Source: Ferrovibrio sp.
Lineage (GTDB): Bacteria > Pseudomonadota > Alphaproteobacteria > Ferrovibrionales > Ferrovibrionaceae
Assembly: GCF_029255545.1 (NCBI RefSeq)
Contig: NZ_JANLJJ010000011.1
Span: 37,374-88,757, forward strand
Length of the DNA: 51,384 nt
Direction: 5' to 3'
This document shows, piece after piece, positions 34,353 to 43,079 of this stretch (within the stretch, counting starts at the first letter, position 1; each line of letters begins with the position of its first letter). Under the pieces are notes generated by a model that did no database searches, was not told where the DNA came from, and was given only the letters and a program-made list of their open reading frames with translations. The position numbers and the translations under genes were made by a program.

Positions 34353-36587
34353 TCAGGCCGCCCGGGCTTCGACCCGGGCCTGCATCCGGACCTGCGATGC
34401 CGGTTTCGCTGTTTCCGCTTTCTTGAAAAATCCGACCAGCTCGGCCAGCGCGCGCGCCTGTTCCGCCAGGGCCTGGGCCGAGGCGGTGGTTTCCTCCACC
34501 AGGGCAGCGTTGCGCTGGGTCGCCTGATCCATCTGCGCCACGGCGGTGTTGACCTGCTCCAGCCCGGTCGCCTGTTCTTTGCTGGCCGCCGCGATCTCGG
34601 CGATGATATCGGATACACTCCTGATGGCCTGGTTGACCTCGTCCAGCGCGGCGCCGGCGCGATCGACCAGCCCGGCACCCTCGCGCACATGGCCATTGGA
34701 ATCCTCGATCAGGCCCTTGATCTCCTTCGCGGCATTGGCCGAACGCTGCGCCAGCGCGCGCACTTCGTGCGCCACCACCGCGAAACCCTTGCCGGCTTCG
34801 CCGGCGCGGGCCGCCTCGACGGATGCGTTCAGCGCCAGCAGATTGGTCTGGAAGGCGATCTCGTTCATCACCACGACGATGTCGCCGATGCGGGTGGCGC
34901 TGGCCTCGATCTTCTGCATCGCGCCAACCACGCCCTGCACCACGACTCCGCTGGCGACCGCCTTGTCGCGGGCAGCGGCGCTTAAGTGATCGGCCCGCGC
35001 GGCGTTGTCGGCATTCTGTTTCACCGTCGCGGTGATCTGCTGCATGGTCGCCGCGGTTTCCTCCAGGGCGGCCGCCTGGCTTTCGCTGCGCTGGGCCAGA
35101 TCGAGGCTGCCGGCGGAAATCTCGCCGGCGGCCGATTGCACCGCCACCGTGCTGTCGCCCAGGCGGCGCGAGAAATCGCTGAGCAGGCTGGCCATGCGGT
35201 TGGCGCTGTCCTTCAGCTGGCTGAAGATGCCGGCGTAATCACCCGTCACCTTGTGGCCGGTATCGCCATGGCCAAGCGCCTCGGTCACGTCGGCCAGTTC
35301 GCCCACCATGCCCTGCAGCATCTCGGTCAGCCGGTTGAGCTGACGGCTGACATCGAGGAAAAAGCCTTCCTTGCCGTCCTGCGCCAGCCGGCCGGCAAGG
35401 TCGCCGCCGATGATGCGGTTGACCAGCTCGCTGATCTCGGCGGCGGCGACTTTTTCGCGCGCCTCACGCTCGGCGAGCTTAAGCCGCTCGCCGTCGCGCA
35501 CCACCTGGCGGTCGCGCGATGATTTGCGCCGCGCCCGGCTTTCGCCCCGCCAGTCGCGCCAGGCCTGGCGCAGGTCGCCGAACCGCCGGCCGCCGCCGGC
35601 GACCAGGCCGGCCAGCGCGACCACCGGCAGGCCGAGCGTCAGGCAGGCGGCGAAAACGCCGGAGAAACGATCCTTCGGCTGCGCCAGCAATCGCGCGCAG
35701 TCGGCGCGCAGATCGGCGGCGACGCGGTCGCGGACCCGGTTGATCTGCTCGATCCGCTGCGTCGTGGTCTGAAACCAGTGCGGCGCCGCTATGCCGCCGG
35801 TGGAGCCATGGGCGAAACCGTCATGGATCGCGGCGCGTAAGGTCTGCACGGCCGTGAATACCGCGTCCTGACAGACCGTATCGAAGAAGGCCGCCTGCGC
35901 CGAAGAGGCATGCGAGCGGAAGACGGCGAAATCGGCCTCCTGCAGGAAACCCAGACTCATGAACCGCTGGAAGACCGGCAGCTCGAAGCGGCCGGCCGCC
36001 AGCGCGCCCGACCCGGTGGCGCGTTCCTGCGCCGATTTCTCCAGGCCTTCCAGCAGGGCAAGGAATGCATCCAGCCCGCGGGCGAAGGCCATGTTGTTCA
36101 GCAGATAGCCGATGCCGCGCACGCTTTCCAGGCCATGGCGGATCGGCACGGTCCAGTTGGCGAAGGATTGCTGGGTGGTCAGCTCAAGCCGGTCGATGGC
36201 AGGCCGGTTGGCGCGGGCGCGCTCGAGCAGGGCGCCGAGTTCGTCGCCGGCAGAAACCAGCGATGCCAGCAGGGCATGCCCGCGACAATCCTCGACCGCG
36301 GCCCTGACCGCGACCGCGCTCTGGTCCATCGCGCCGCGCGCCACCTGCAGCTGGTCGCGGAATTCATGGCCCTTGCTGCCGATGAACAGCGCGCTGGAGC
36401 CGCGTTCGCGCTGCAGGTCGTTGGCCAGTTGCCCGATGGCGATGGCATAGGCGATGGCCTTTTCGGCGGCCGGGGCTTCGTCACGCAGCTGCCGCTCCTC
36501 GAACAGGCGGGTGGCGGCAAAGCCGACAAAACCGAGTATCGCAAGATTGCGGGGTGAGGTCGGTGAGGTCTGGACGGCGGCAGGCAT
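34353..36587 (-). CDS. Methyl-accepting chemotaxis protein with a NIT (nitrate/nitrite-sensing) domain
   Basis: This is a 744-residue chemoreceptor. A short N-terminal hydrophobic segment (about 14-30) is followed by an all-helical sensor domain with the NIT hallmark [19 protein letters not shown] and a second family motif [21 protein letters not shown] membrane helix (about 305-330), HAMP-like segments and a full signalling domain follow, with [21 protein letters not shown] at the hairpin tip. NIT domains sense nitrate and nitrite. ATG at 36587 with GAGGTG is preferred over a longer frame through the terminator. The gene lies directly after the cyanate/nitrate operon but has its own sigma-54-like promoter. 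Confidence 0.9.
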
Positions 36588-36649
36588 GCGGCACCTCTTC
36601 TTTATCGCTTTTGGGTGGTCGCAACCGGCGACACCATGCTTCAAAAGCA

Positions 36650-36665
36650 AGCATGATCCGTGCCA
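36650..36665 (-). promoter_or_regulatory. Candidate sigma-54 promoter of the NIT chemoreceptor gene
   Basis: On the minus strand TGGCACGGATCATGCT matches the -24/-12 consensus TGGCAC-N5-TTGC[AT] with one mismatch (ATGC for TTGC), and the invariant GG-N10-GC is kept. A transcript would start near 36639, about 50 nt before the ATG. A 7-bp inverted repeat, CATGCTT...AAGCATG (36635-36655), overlaps the -12/start region. Confidence 0.6.
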
Positions 36666-36726
36666 AGAAAACTTTGGCGGAAACAGCCTGACATGCCACG
36701 CACGGTTCGCGTGCAGCGCGGCCCGC

Positions 36727-36764
36727 AAAAAAAGATGCCGTCCGACGCAACGCCGAACGGCATC
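36727..36764 (-). terminator. Rho-independent terminator of the cynS operon
   Basis: The arms GATGCCGT and ACGGCATC are extended inward by partial pairing, and on the minus strand are followed by seven T. It lies 47 bp after the cynS stop and before the chemoreceptor promoter, so it separates the two transcripts. Confidence 0.9.
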
Positions 36765-36810: not shown

Positions 36811-37260
36811 TCAGTAGCGCTTGTAATCGAGGAACTTGCCGGTCATGACGATCTTGACGCGGTCGCCCTTCGGATCGGGCAGGCGTTCCATCGTCATGTT
36901 GAAGTCGATCGCCGACATGATGCCGTCGCCGAATTCCTCCTGGATCAGCTCCTTCCAGGTGGTGCCATAGACCTGCACCAGTTCGTGGAAGCGATAGATC
37001 AGCGGATCGGTCGGCGGGCCCGGCGGCAGCGAACCCCGATAGGGCGTCTCGGCCAGCAGCTTCTCTTCCATCTTGCCCAAGCCGAACAGCTTGGCCGCCT
37101 TCGCCGCCTGCGGCGGCGTCAGCTTCATCTGGCCGAGCAGGCCGGCGGTGAGGAAGATCGGCGACTGCTTGGAATCGATCTTTTTGGTGATCTCTTTCCA
37201 GCTCCAGCCTTTCATCCGCTTGATGTCGAGAATCTTCTCGGTCACGGACTCGCGTTTCAC
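36811..37260 (-). CDS. cynS: Cyanate hydratase (cyanase)
   Basis: CynS converts cyanate and bicarbonate to ammonia and CO2. The 149-residue protein matches the family (156 in Escherichia coli). The catalytic Arg and Glu are in PLIYRFHELVQVYGTTWK, and the catalytic Ser is in FGDGIMSAIDF. The N-terminal HTH-like helical domain (ILDIKRMKGWSWKEI) is present. The start is GTG at 37260 with AGGAGAGAAACC. It is the last gene of the operon after the ABC transporter genes, which points to cyanate as at least one transported substrate. Confidence 0.97.
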   Translation of the reverse strand: MKRESVTEKILDIKRMKGWSWKEITKKIDSKQSPIFLTAGLLGQMKLTPPQAAKAAKLFGLGKMEEKLLAETPYRGSLPPGPPTDPLIYRFHELVQVYGTTWKELIQEEFGDGIMSAIDFNMTMERLPDPKGDRVKIVMTGKFLDYKRY

Positions 37261-37297: not shown

Positions 37298-38176
37298 TTA
37301 TTCGGCAGCCGCGCCGTCCAGGCCTACCCCCAGCCCCGCCTTGGGCGCGGCGGCATAGACATGCGGCGGCTTGCGGGCATCCCAGCCCGCCGGTGGCGTG
37401 AAGGCCTTCGAGCGCCGAACCAGGAAATCCAGCAGGTGATTGCGGATCGGATAGTAATCCGGCAGCTGGTGCAGGGTTTCGCGGCTGCGATCCTTCGGCA
37501 GGGTGTTGACCAGGATCTCGGCGATCCTGGCGCCGGGCCCGTTGGTCATCAGCACGATGCGGTCGGCCAGCAGCATGGCCTCGTCGACATCATGGGTGAT
37601 CATGAAGACGGTAAGATTGGTGGCGGCGCGCAGGCGCAGCACCTCGTCCTGTAATGTTCCACGCGTGAGTGCATCGAGAGCCGAGAACGGCTCGTCCATC
37701 AGCAGCGTTTTCGGCTCGGTCGACAATGCGCGGGCAATGCCGACGCGCTGCTTCATGCCGCCGGAAAGCTGCGCCGGCCGTTTCGCTTCCGCGCCGGCCA
37801 GGCCGACCATGGCGATGTATTTGCGCGCATGCTCGATGGCCCTGGCCTTCGGCCAGGCCGGCCAGCGCGACTGCACGGCAAACAGCACGTTGTCGAGCAC
37901 GCTCATCCACGGCATCAGGGCATGGCCCTGGAACACCACGGCGCGGTCCAGGCTGGGGCCTTCCACCGCCTTGCCGTCGAAGATGATGGCGCCGTCGCTG
38001 GGCGTGTCCAGGCCGGCCAGGATATTGAGCACGGTGGTCTTGCCGCAGCCGGAATGGCCGATGATGCAGACGAACTCGCCCTTCTCGACGCCGAACCACA
38101 GATCCTCGAACACCGCCTTATCGCTGCCGGGAAACTGGCGCTTGAGCGCCTCGACCGAAATGAAATGCTGACTCAT
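37298..38176 (-). CDS. Nitrate/cyanate-type ABC transporter ATP-binding protein
   Basis: This is a 292-residue ATPase of the NrtC/NrtD/CynD (taurine-nitrate) group. Walker A is [10 protein letters not shown], the Q loop is [11 protein letters not shown], the signature is [15 protein letters not shown], Walker B is [11 protein letters not shown] and the switch His is in ITHDVDEA. The C-terminal extension ([19 protein letters not shown]) is usual for nitrate/cyanate ATPases. ATG at 38176 follows the permease stop by 10 bp. Confidence 0.93.
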
Positions 38177-38186
38177 GGCTGCTGCC

Positions 38187-39026
38187 TCATTCCGGATAGG
38201 TGACAAGGCGGGTGAGGAAACCAAGCAGCTGGTCGAGCAGCATGCCGATCACGCCGATGAACAGGATGGCGTTGATCACGTTGGCGATGGAGAGGTTGTT
38301 CCACTCGTTCCACACGAAGTAGCCGATGCCGGTGCCGCCGACCAGCATCTCGGCGGCGACGATCACCAGCCAGGCGATCGAGATCGAAATGCGCATGCCG
38401 GTGAGGATGGTGGGCGCCGCCGCCGGCAGGATGACGCGGAAGATCTTGCGGAAGGTGCCGACCTCCAGCGTGCGCGCCACGTTCAGCCATTCCTTGCGCA
38501 CATTCGCCACGGCAAAGGCCGTGTTGGTCAGCATCGGCCAGATCGAGCAGATGAAGATGACGAAGATCGAGGAAATCGCGCTGTCCTTGATCGTGTAGAG
38601 CGCCAGCGGCATCCAGGCCAAGGGCGAAACCGGCCGCATGACCTGGATGAACGGATCAAGCGCCTGGCGGAACAGCGGCGAGAGGCCAATCAGGAAGCCG
38701 AGCGGCACGGCGACCAGCACGGCCAGACCGAAACCCAGCGCGACGCGCAGGATCGACCAGCCGAGCTGGACGCCGATGCCCTGGTCGTTCGGGCCCTTCA
38801 CGTAAAACGGATCGGCCAGATGCTTCCACAGCGTCGCGCCGACATCGAGCGGACCCGGCATCGCCGATTTGCCCTGGGTGGCGGTGAGCCCCATCAGCTT
38901 GGCGTATTCCGGATCCATGGCCTGGGTCTGGCCGGCGCCCGAGGTGGCGATATGCCAGGCCCCGAGCAGCGCGACCAGCAGGGCCACCGACACGATGGCG
39001 GCGCGCAGGCGGAACGATATCTTCAT
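38187..39026 (-). CDS. Nitrate/cyanate-type ABC transporter permease
   Basis: This is a 279-residue inner-membrane permease with about six helices and the cytoplasmic EAA loop ([28 protein letters not shown]). It is typical of the NrtB/CynB/TauC group, including [17 protein letters not shown]-like membrane segments ([20 protein letters not shown]). An N-terminal signal-anchor helix precedes a periplasmic loop of about 60 residues ([16 protein letters not shown]), as in NrtB. It lies between the binding-protein and ATPase genes. Confidence 0.93.
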
Positions 39027-39068: not shown

Positions 39069-40460
39069 TCAGGCGCGCCTGATCTTGAACGAGTTGACGT
39101 ATTCGGCAGGCTTGCTTGGGTCGAAGGGCTTGCCCATCACCGAGAAGGTCTTGTACGGGCTGCTTGGCGGGGTGAGGCCGACATCCTGCATCAGCTTCGC
39201 CGTATCGGTGGCGAGGAAAACCTGCTCGGCCACCTTCTGGTAATCGACGTCGCCCTTGATCTGACCCCAGCGCTTCATCTGGGTGAGAATCCAGATGCCG
39301 AAGCTCTGCCAGGGGAAGGGCGCGAAATCGATGCGGTCGGGCACCTTCTTCACATTGCCCAGGCCATCTGCGTAAGTGCCGGTCAGAACCTGCTCAACCA
39401 CCGTCACCGGCTGGTTCAGATAGGCCGCCGGCGCGATGGCCTCGGCGATCTGCTTGCGGTTCTCCGCCTTGGTGGCATAGGCGGTCGCCTCGATGATGGC
39501 GCGCAGCAGGGCGCGATAGGTATTCGGCGCGCTCTTGATGAAGTCCTGGCTGGCGGCGAAGGCGCAGCAGGGATGGCCGTCCCAGATTTCCTTGGTCAGC
39601 AGGTGGATGAAGCCGACGCCGTCATAGACCGCGCGCTGGTTCACCGGATCGGGCGCCAGGAAGCCGTCGATATTGTCGGCGCGCAGGTTGGCCACCATCT
39701 CCGGCGGCGGCACGGCACGGATCTGCACGTCGGTATCGGGGTCGACGCCATGTTCGGCCAGATAATAGCGCAGCAGGTAATTGTGCATCGAATAATCGAA
39801 GGGCACGGCCAGCTTGAAGCCCTTCCACTGCTTCGGGTCGCGCTTGTCCTTGTGCTTCATCGCCAGCGTGATGGCCTGGCCGTTGATATTCTCCACCGCC
39901 GGCATGGTGTAGGGGATCGGGTTCGAGCCGGTGCCGGTGGTGATCGCCAGCGGCATGGGCGACAGCATGTGGGCGGCGTCGTATTCCTTGTTGATGGTCT
40001 TGTCGCGGATCACCGCCCAGCCGGCGGTCTTGATCACGTCGACATTCAGGCCGTGCTTGGCATAGAAGCCCATCGGATGCGCCATGATGATCGGCGTGGC
40101 GCAGGTGATGGCGATGAAACCGACCTTGAGGTCCTTCTTCTCCAGCGGGCCCTTGTCCTGCGCGAAAGCCTCGCGCGCGGTGGCCAGCGGGAAGAACTGC
40201 TCGATCGCGGCCAGCAGCGTGCCGGCGCCGATGGTGTGCAGCACGCGGCGGCGGGTCATGTCGTCGGGGATCAGGGCACGCACCACCGCCTGGTCGACCG
40301 CGTTGGTCAGGCGCTTTTCCGCGTCGGCGGCGGTCTGCAGCTGGGTCTGCTGCTGCAGGGCGGCCAGCTCGGCATTGTGGTCGCCCAGGCTCCGGTGGGC
40401 GCCGCAGGGGCAGGCGGACAGATCGCTCTGGTGGTCGAACGGGTTCTTGAACAGTGACAT
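39069..40460 (-). CDS. NrtA/CynA-family periplasmic binding protein, Tat-exported, with a Cys-containing leader
   Basis: This is a 463-residue substrate-binding protein of the CmpA/NrtA/CynA family (DLKVGFIAITCATPIIMAHPMGFYAKHGL; GFLAPDPVNQRAVYDGVGFIH; DGHPCCAFAASQDFI). A twin-arginine-like motif (TRRRVLHTIG, residues 69-78) with a following hydrophobic stretch suggests Tat export. It is preceded by an unusually long leader of about 68 residues containing SACPCGAHRS (C17, C19) and a Gln-rich helix. ATG at 40460 is chosen; a longer frame would cross the promoter. It is the first gene of the operon, with a sigma-54 promoter about 40 bp upstream. Confidence 0.92.
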   Translation of the reverse strand: MSLFKNPFDHQSDLSACPCGAHRSLGDHNAELAALQQQTQLQTAADAEKRLTNAVDQAVVRALIPDDMTRRRVLHTIGAGTLLAAIEQFFPLATAREAFAQDKGPLEKKDLKVGFIAITCATPIIMAHPMGFYAKHGLNVDVIKTAGWAVIRDKTINKEYDAAHMLSPMPLAITTGTGSNPIPYTMPAVENINGQAITLAMKHKDKRDPKQWKGFKLAVPFDYSMHNYLLRYYLAEHGVDPDTDVQIRAVPPPEMVANLRADNIDGFLAPDPVNQRAVYDGVGFIHLLTKEIWDGHPCCAFAASQDFIKSAPNTYRALLRAIIEATAYATKAENRKQIAEAIAPAAYLNQPVTVVEQVLTGTYADGLGNVKKVPDRIDFAPFPWQSFGIWILTQMKRWGQIKGDVDYQKVAEQVFLATDTAKLMQDVGLTPPSSPYKTFSVMGKPFDPSKPAEYVNSFKIRRA

Positions 40461-40501
40461 GCTGCCTGCCTCTCCTGTTGCGGATGCCTCAGGCTGCAAG
40501 G

Positions 40502-40517
40502 AGCAAGGAGCGTGCCA
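40502..40517 (-). promoter_or_regulatory. Sigma-54 (-24/-12) promoter of the cyanate/nitrate operon
   Basis: On the minus strand TGGCACGCTCCTTGCT is a perfect match to TGGCAC-N5-TTGC[AT]. Transcription would begin near 40491, about 30 nt before the binding-protein start. The divergently encoded sigma-54 activator and the palindromes at 40564-40616 complete the expected layout. Confidence 0.88.
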
Positions 40518-40563
40518 TGGCCACAAAATGGTGATTGCCAAGACTTTGCCGCCACCGCTATAC

Positions 40564-40616
40564 TACGATTATTCGTAATATACGATTATTCGTAGTTCTG
40601 ATTACGATTAATCGTA
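40564..40616. promoter_or_regulatory. Three 14-bp palindromes, candidate enhancer (activator-binding) sites
   Basis: TACGATTATTCGTA occurs at 40564-40577 and again at 40581-40594. TACGATTAATCGTA, a perfect palindrome, is at 40603-40616. Centres lie about 80, 97 and 119 bp upstream of the predicted sigma-54 start site, the usual range for enhancer sites. They also lie 20-72 bp before the activator start codon, so the activator may regulate itself. They do not match the NtrC consensus. Confidence 0.85.
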
Positions 40617-40635
40617 GAACCACGCAGGATCAGCC

Positions 40636-42558
<1,923 letters not shown>

Positions 42559-42698
42559 TTCCGGGCAAACCACAATGGCTGGGGTGTCGTTCTGGCACTC
42601 TCCCCCTCTTGTCTGCCAAGGCATTAGGCGCTTCACTGTCTCTGCCTTCCAGAACACGGCCGCCGTTGCCTGCGCTCCCTTCCTGCTGCGAGGCGATC

Positions 42699-42944
42699 AT
42701 GGTCACCATTCGTCTGGACAAACACGGCCGGCTCGACCTGCCGGCCGAGCTGGTCGACAGCCATCACTGGCGCGTCGGCACGGAGTTCGTCATCGAGGAT
42801 CGACCCGAAGGCCTGCTGCTGCGCCCCCTGCGCGATCATCCGAAAGCCGCCAGGGCGGCATCAGATGGCCACCATGGCAGTACCGGCCGCGATTCCGCGC
42901 TGGCCGATGCGGTGCGCAGCCGCTATGCCCGGCTGGGGCATTAA
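42699..42944 (+). CDS. AbrB/SpoVT-fold DNA-binding protein, orphan antitoxin-like
   Basis: This is an 81-residue protein. The N-terminal 45 residues form a swapped-hairpin AbrB/MazE-type domain (VTIRLDKHGRLDLPAEL, GTEFVIEDRPEGLLLRPL). The C-terminal part is short and charged and ends in ADAVRSRYARLGH. Such proteins are usually VapB or MazE antitoxins, yet no toxin gene is adjacent on either side. ATG at 42699 is favoured (GAGGCGATC upstream) over an upstream frame through low-complexity DNA. Confidence 0.75.
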   Translation: MVTIRLDKHGRLDLPAELVDSHHWRVGTEFVIEDRPEGLLLRPLRDHPKAARAASDGHHGSTGRDSALADAVRSRYARLGH

Positions 42945-43079
42945 AGCCTGAAATGATGTAGCCGAAACAACGCCGTGACCACCATCACGGCCATCCGTCC
43001 CTTGCCGCGCCATCATCCGGCCGTATTTCCCTGACATCGGTATCACCTGCCGCTTCAGGCCTCCCGGAGGATGTCGGCG

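Follow-up and report, generated by a model that had tools for sequence, protein, structure and literature searches.

Three palindromes at conserved spacings beside cynF as a probable enhancer of cyanate and cyanide operons

The window, i.e. the whole 51,384-nt stretch of Ferrovibrio sp. DNA that we analysed, contains a divergent intergenic gap at 40461-40635 with an NrtA-like substrate-binding protein on the minus side and an activator on the plus side (Table 1). The operon opposite the activator encodes an ABC transporter and a cyanase; the same genes occur at the plasmid loci L158, L159, L161 and L162, with one extra gene in the set of L159. Pfam assigned two PAS stretches, Sigma54_activat (3.9e-74) and HTH_8 (23.4 bits, cut-off 22) to the activator, the translation of which contains the GAFTGA motif; no GAF domain was among the Pfam matches. 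One Sigma54_DBD match in the genome shows that rpoN is present. Among the best 80 of 552 matches, the nearest relative of the activator comes from an alphaproteobacterial MAG (L034, 84% identity), and Ferrovibrio sp. L035 and L036 (76-78%) are among the nearest matches that carry a genus name.

Table 1. Features of the cyn locus (positions in the window)
Feature	Position	Strand	Basis or remark
cynF, 640 aa; PAS-PAS-AAA+(GAFTGA)-Fis HTH sigma-54 activator	40636..42558	+	Pfam, translation, relatives
cynA/nrtA-like substrate-binding protein (NMT1_2)	39069..40460	-	Pfam
ABC permease (cynB/nrtB)	38187..39026	-	Pfam
ABC ATPase (cynD/nrtC)	37298..38224	-	Pfam
cynS, cyanase (Cyanate_lyase + CYNS_N)	36811..37260	-	Pfam
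Sigma-54 promoter TGGCACGCTCCTTGCT (-24/-12) of the nrt/cyn operon	40502..40517	-	0 mismatches to consensus
Sigma-70-like promoter TTGCCA-18-TATACT for cynF	40535..40564	+	1 found, shuffle mean 0.3; weak
Palindrome 1, promoter-proximal, TACGATTATTCGTA; predicted CynF-dimer site	40564..40577		centre 55.5 bp from the -24 G
Palindrome 2, TACGATTATTCGTA	40581..40594		17 bp from palindrome 1
Palindrome 3, TACGATTAATCGTA	40603..40616		22 bp from palindrome 2

The first-pass annotation had reported three copies of a palindrome in the gap, TACGATTATTCGTA twice and TACGATTAATCGTA once. All three are present at 40564-40616, the last ending 19 bp before the presumed start codon of cynF; however, only palindrome 3 is a perfect dyad, and palindromes 1 and 2 are each broken at one pair. 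At ≤3 mismatches the window yielded 7 strand-matches versus 0.95 expected, a number reached by none of 100 shuffles: six of them are the three sites, the seventh lies at 39787 and has 3 mismatches. In the whole genome (4,110,678 bases) the three sites are the sole places within one mismatch of TACGATTAWTCGTA and the only exact matches to TACGA-N4-TCGTA. One mismatch to the latter pattern adds 19 genome places, compared with 203 for the reversed control pattern, so that a single loose site carries little meaning. The most consensus-like of these places, TACGAGATTTCGTT (L125), was judged a chance match because it lies inside coding frames resembling, by eye, succinate dehydrogenase genes. NtrC recognizes dyads of the type TGCACC-N5-GGTGCA; this consensus had no match in 40461-40635 at ≤3 mismatches, in agreement with the earlier statement that the motif is not NtrC-like.

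Downstream of the sites, the perfect sigma-54 promoter proposed before was recovered: TGGCACGCTCCTTGCT is the sole zero-mismatch match to TGGCACG-N4-TTGCW in the window, in which the number of matches at ≤2 mismatches (4) is below the 10.7 expected. Counted with the second G of TGGCACGCTCCTTGCT as -24, the site centres lie at -79.5, -96.5 and -118.5 relative to this promoter, which reproduces the previously given distance of about 80-119 bp before the predicted start. A sigma-54-like box is also present at related loci. Cyanase genes also appear in published work on sigma-54: for Bradyrhizobium deficient in RpoN, cynS is listed among the genes with lowered expression (PMC13207237), and cyanate lyase is enriched in predicted sigma-54 targets of alpha- and gammaproteobacteria (PMC12316311).

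For comparison we gathered loci by protein search, independently of the motif. A first set comprises 80 loci from named genome contigs (the best 80 of 552 matches), a second set 36 loci from further genomes, a plasmid set 5 loci from 21 matching records and a Pseudomonas-type set 43 loci from the genus of G563, in which 35 of 398 genomes had a match; this genus was taken as Pseudomonas because its member G1003 has the gene order published for strain CECT5344. The sets overlap, with some genomes counted in two, and many loci are close kin (Bradyrhizobium, Pseudomonas). The predicted operator is a cassette of three ACGA-N4-TCGT palindromes whose centres are separated by 17 (or 18) and by 21-23 bp; a region passed if it contained centre spacings of 17-18 and 21-23 with ≤4 mismatches over the 24 core bases. 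By this measure 77 of 78 regulator-upstream regions of the first set passed (two of the 80 being too short), together with 26/36 in the second and 37/43 in the Pseudomonas-type set; of the plasmid loci, L158, L159 and L160 passed and L161 and L162 failed. None of 6,732 control windows from the loci of the first two sets reached ≤4 mismatches, and two reached 6.

Clustering at 85% protein identity reduced 120 upstream regions to 43 clusters (2 of 122 regions, L045 and L058, were left out as too short). The cassette is found in 31 of the 35 two-PAS clusters, and in each of these 31 it was unmatched by any of 100 shuffles; the conservation beside the activator at orthologous loci, which the first-pass annotation had named as a check, is observed. 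The passing regulators are 48-84% identical to the CynF of the window. In each of the three sites, conserved bases concentrate in A-C-G-A and T-C-G-T. The inner positions are rich in A/T, and most of the sequence between the sites drifts. Among the 31 clusters the spacings are 17 and 22 in 15 cases, 17 and 21 in 11, 17 and 23 in three and 18 and 22 in two. An apparent loss of site 3 in Bradyrhizobium, seen in a test with fixed spacings of 17 and 22, was rejected: with 21-23 allowed, site 3 is found one base nearer. The cassette was found in none of the 8 other clusters, i.e. those of more distant regulators, the closest approach being L172 with 8 mismatches (equalled by 4/100 shuffles); we regard its absence from these paralogue clusters as a weak negative.

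The second set had ten misses, of which nine are matches to CynF that lack the first PAS domain (L170-L176) or both PAS domains (the FhlA-like L177 and its cluster mate L178); the tenth, L182, has a degenerate array with 6 mismatches. L182 is also one of the four two-PAS clusters that failed, the others being L038 (7 mismatches, equalled by 3/100 shuffles) and the plasmid loci L161 (5 mismatches) and L162 (6), which have two sites only and in which a pattern search detected no sigma-54 box before the first operon gene. At the regulator, the cassette is absent in L266, and two good sites are found in L267, L249 and L254. A CynF without the first PAS domain, encoded at 3004-4510 of L271 beside cynS, is accompanied by a perfect three-site cassette, so the first PAS domain is dispensable for keeping the operator.

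In 28 of the 31 clusters with a cassette the recognition helix of the regulator is TTLASR; the other three have TTLYSR (L192), TTLSSR (L169) and TTLISK (L160). In L038 the sites lean to ACAA..TTGT and the helix reads TTLAAR; in the plasmid locus L160 they lean to ATGA..TCAT, with the helix TTLISK. We read these altered half-sites, two cases only, as possible co-variation with the helix. Five of the 8 non-cassette clusters carry STLRS(R/K). The correlation is loose, since L271 has the helix PTTLRSR yet a perfect cassette, and L161, L162 and L182 have a TTLYS helix with two or degenerate sites.

A strict two-site pattern was searched genome-wide. Within the class, 4 of 385 genomes contained it; among 18 chosen genomes it was present in 11, at 12 places. 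The reversed-pattern control gave 0 in both searches, and all 16 places (13 distinct, three shared) lie ≤150 bp upstream of a match to cynF or nitA. In the 7 chosen genomes in which the pair was missed, the cassettes have mismatches in the tested pair.

The first-pass annotation was not aware of a described activator for cyanase operons of this architecture. However, CynF of Pseudomonas pseudoalcaligenes CECT5344 is such an activator: its gene is divergent from cynABDS, the mutant is without cyanase activity, and CynF is needed for cyanate-induced cyn expression (PMC6627978). The cynFABDS locus of CECT5344 and the window are alike in activator type, divergence, the sigma-54 promoter before cynA and operon content. 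In L229 (G1003; 4.66 Mb, single contig) we found the order gltBD-cynF-cynABDS-hemE as published for CECT5344, with gltBD and hemE assigned from Pfam, together with a perfect cassette; the CynF encoded there is ~60% identical to that of the window. L164 had been considered as a CECT5344-like locus as well and was rejected: its flanks code for sugar-kinase and efflux families. On sequence grounds, the activator of the window is an orthologue of CynF.

The same three-site cassette accompanies a second regulator, NitA, a Fis-family sigma-54 regulator divergent from nitBCDEFGH in the nit1C cluster (PMC11049912). Altogether the cassette precedes three types of target. In alphaproteobacteria and at some Pseudomonas-type loci it precedes an ABC transporter together with cyanase. 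At further loci from outside the class, among them Pseudomonas-type loci, the target is a formate/nitrite-type channel with cyanase (the PF01226 channel being tested with Pfam in L163 and L166 and by tblastn in the Pseudomonas-type loci). In Pseudomonas-type loci and on an Acinetobacter ursingii plasmid it is the nit1C nitrilase cluster, the regulator of which goes by the name NitA in Pseudomonas. The palindromes are therefore found at the cyanase operon as noted before, but are not cyanase-specific. NitA and nit1C differ from CynF and cyn in the operon, in the first spacing and in the distance to the promoter, which is 99.5-110.5 bp for the nit cassette versus 54.5-90.5 bp for cyn. Among 68 good-cassette regions the first spacing is 17 in 45/45 beside cynS and 18 in 21/21 beside the nitrilase; two regions with neither gene in range have 17 (L069) and 18 (L241). 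G1003 carries both the cynF-type and the nitA-type cassette in one genome. The tree places the nit regulators (9 rows) next to CynF in a single group with full support, and since they are one clade the split between 17 and 18 may reflect history rather than function. A functional spacing code is an unlikely, if conceivable, alternative: CynF and NitA would read the same half-sites, a first spacing of 17 would stand for cyanate and of 18 for cyanide, the one extra base pair between dimers 1 and 2 would decide which AAA+ hexamer assembles on the three-dimer array as its DNA template, and the distance to the promoter would shift only by approximately whole helical turns.

Within the open-access main texts searched, the sites of the cassette are undescribed. 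We found no CynF binding site in the accessible text of PMC6627978, the main text of which does not contain the string 'palindrom', and no NitA binding site in the accessible portions of the open-access literature on NitA. The consensus strings ACGAAATTTCGT and TACGAAATTTCGTA were absent from the open-access literature searched, in which the FhlA string TTTCGTACGAAA was found in one paper, and the accessible part of PMC11804256 contained nothing relevant to CynF or NitA sites.

Two characterized activators provide parallels. NorR occupies three upstream sites at norVW, all of which are needed and which scaffold an oligomer of higher order, most likely hexameric (PMC2941729). The NO sensor of NorR is a GAF domain, and GT(N)7AC is listed as its binding consensus (PMC4987338). 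The likeness lies in the three candidate sites between regulator and operon, present in 31/35 two-PAS clusters here, whereas CynF has PAS domains and no GAF match, and the consensus here is ACGA-N4-TCGT. For FhlA, the site CATTTCGTACGAAATG with the half-site TTTCGT is listed (PMC4987338). The recognition helix of E. coli FhlA, RTTLLSRMKRLGI, is similar to that of the CynF of the window and the half-site TTTCGT is common to both; however, the halves are exchanged, TTTCGT-ACGAAA in FhlA versus ACGAAA-TTTCGT here. The window contains no match to CATTTCGTACGAAATG at ≤3 mismatches, and the E. coli hycA-hypA gap, read by eye for an FhlA-like array, shows degenerate TTTCG half-sites only. The FhlA parallel is a resemblance and not membership.

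In some Pseudomonas-type loci nitA is displaced from the operon. Of four such cases, three (G799, G825 and G1130) were examined at both genes and the fourth (G957) was left out. The cassette lies upstream of nitB in 3/3: in G825 an ORF separates nitA and nitB and the cassette adjoins nitB, in G799 nitA is ~7.6 kb away and the cassette stands at nitB, and in G1130 nitA is located downstream of the nit genes, nitB having three sites and nitA keeping a pair. No pair is left at nitA in G799 and G825, where one single near-site (1 mismatch) remains. As nitB keeps the cassette when nitA is displaced, we assign it primarily to the target operon.

The distance of the cassette to the promoter was measured in 42 of 57 clusters, namely those in which the cassette is good. 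The operon-side match that scored best was taken as the sigma-54 box (that of L066 is without the -12 GC). The distances from the centre of site 1 to the -24 G span 54.5-110.5 bp in ~11-bp steps: they fall at 54.5-56.5, 64.5-67.5, 74.5-79.5, 87.5-90.5, 99.5 and 109.5-110.5, and the gaps between are empty. The best period is 11.0 bp with a resultant of 0.80, compared with 0.73 at 10.5 bp. As a rough control, the distance from the centre of site 1 to the next ATG past site 3 (40 values) showed no period, with a best resultant of 0.19. When repeated distances were reduced to one entry each (18 values), the phasing was equalled by 1 of 5,000 uniform random sets; with kin collapsed at 65-80% identity (26-36 values) it was equalled by none of 5,000 at any of the four thresholds. 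The uniform null ignores shared ancestry, so that these counts are not true probabilities. The four clusters of the Ferrovibrio group have distances of 55.5, 77.5, 79.5 and 90.5. It is difficult to account for the empty gaps in another way, and phasing is the expected demand of looping from an enhancer to the sigma-54 polymerase.

We consider it very probable that the three palindromes are the enhancer docking sites of CynF; a hexamer of three dimers would loop them to the sigma-54 promoter. Conserved with CynF, fixed in spacing and phased to the promoter, they behave as the enhancer of the divergent PAS-PAS activator, the role suggested for them at the outset. Each ACGA-N4-TCGT dyad would be bound by one CynF dimer through its Fis-type HTH, and three dimers placed abreast at 17 and 22 bp would bring together six AAA+ domains, i.e. 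one hexamer, after the example of NorR. The PAS domains would sense the inducer, cyanate or a product; the GAFTGA ring would then touch the sigma-54 polymerase at TGGCACGCTCCTTGCT and the cynABD-cynS promoter would open. According to the ~11-bp periodicity among the relatives, the cassette would face the promoter on approximately one side of the helix.

There is a small chance that the palindromes are mainly an operator repressing cynF, bound by CynF or another protein, with cynA activated via other sites. Palindrome 1 begins with the last base of the -10 element in the sole sigma-70-like match for cynF, the presumed start codon of cynF or nitA adjoins site 3 or lies 2 bp from it in some kin, and the displaced nitA genes retain the pair or single near-site described above. 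However, nitB has the complete cassette at all three of these loci while nitA is without a pair at two, and it is the distance to the sigma-54 box that is helically phased whereas that to the next ATG is not. The same observations bear on autoregulation of cynF, which had been suggested earlier: the overlap of site 1 with the sigma-70-like -10 speaks for it, but the cassette sits at the target operon in the three nit loci. Autoregulation is plausible and secondary to control of the target operon; occupancy beside the cynF start would probably damp cynF too, as the weak sigma-70-like match suggests.

It is decidedly improbable that a different regulator, for example of nitrogen or redox metabolism, binds the sites and acts together with CynF. 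The assignment of the sites to CynF is derived from sequence comparison, and ammonium control of cyn has been described in P. pseudoalcaligenes (PMC6627978); yet in the searched genomes the strict pair stands only beside genes of the cynF/nitA family, the window genome has no further close match to the sites, these are unlike the NtrC motif, and the altered half-sites of L038 and L160 pair with altered CynF recognition helices. At the displaced-nitA loci the cassette adjoins nitB, which also counts against another regulator. That the dyads act as RNA hairpins in a cynF leader is scarcely credible: a stem of 5 bp with a loop of 4 nt is conceivable for each unit, and the dyads would lie in the leader if the weak cynF promoter is right, but the cassette stays with nitB and not nitA when the two are separated, it is phased to the operon promoter, and the inner positions 6/9 and 7/8 show no extra pairing, the core being too invariant to inform. 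We give equally little credence to chance, or to mere similarity by descent among closely related loci: many loci are close relatives, but no control window passed, and the cores are kept, unlike the variable spacers, over a range of proteins that reaches down to 48% identity. The element is real and well conserved, and ordinary in kind as the enhancer of a sigma-54 activator.

The enhancer reading would supply a cis-element that has been missing for two known regulators of the assimilation of cyanate and cyanide. One operator would unite CynF and NitA and predict the controlled operons wherever the family occurs, and the phased three-site array offers a natural data set on the assembly of sigma-54 activators and on helix-face limits to looping. 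For specialists, the interest lies in a cyanate/cyanide operator shared with a one-base difference in spacing and in an evolutionary helix-face constraint; the cassette could also serve as a compact part for cyanate or cyanide biosensors.

Several observations were made in the surroundings of these loci. The gene immediately downstream of cynS in the window, at 34353-36728 (-), codes for a methyl-accepting chemotaxis protein that carries a NIT (nitrate/nitrite-sensing) domain. It has a near-full-length match in four of the seven Ferrovibrio-group loci L183-L189 (L183-L186) and a C-terminal match only (single stretch reported) in L188 and L189, with no match in L187; its position near cynS possibly links chemotaxis to cyanate or nitrate. 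A small ORF after cynF, 42700-42944 (+), resembles by eye DNA-binding proteins of the AbrB/SpoVT type; the frame 42518-42961 had no Pfam match. In L163, L166, L168 and L169, outside the class, the cyn operon carries a formate/nitrite transporter instead of the ABC transporter (PF01226, checked with Pfam in L163 and L166), and a gene resembling, by eye, a protein phosphatase lies near this operon in L163, L168 and L169. CynF/NitA-type regulators are present on 17 Acinetobacter plasmid records, and the one examined (L160) carries nit1C; the nit1C trait is probably mobile. The Loktanella plasmid L161 combines cynF-cynABDS with most of the nit1C set beyond cynF, and two palindromes precede its cynF.
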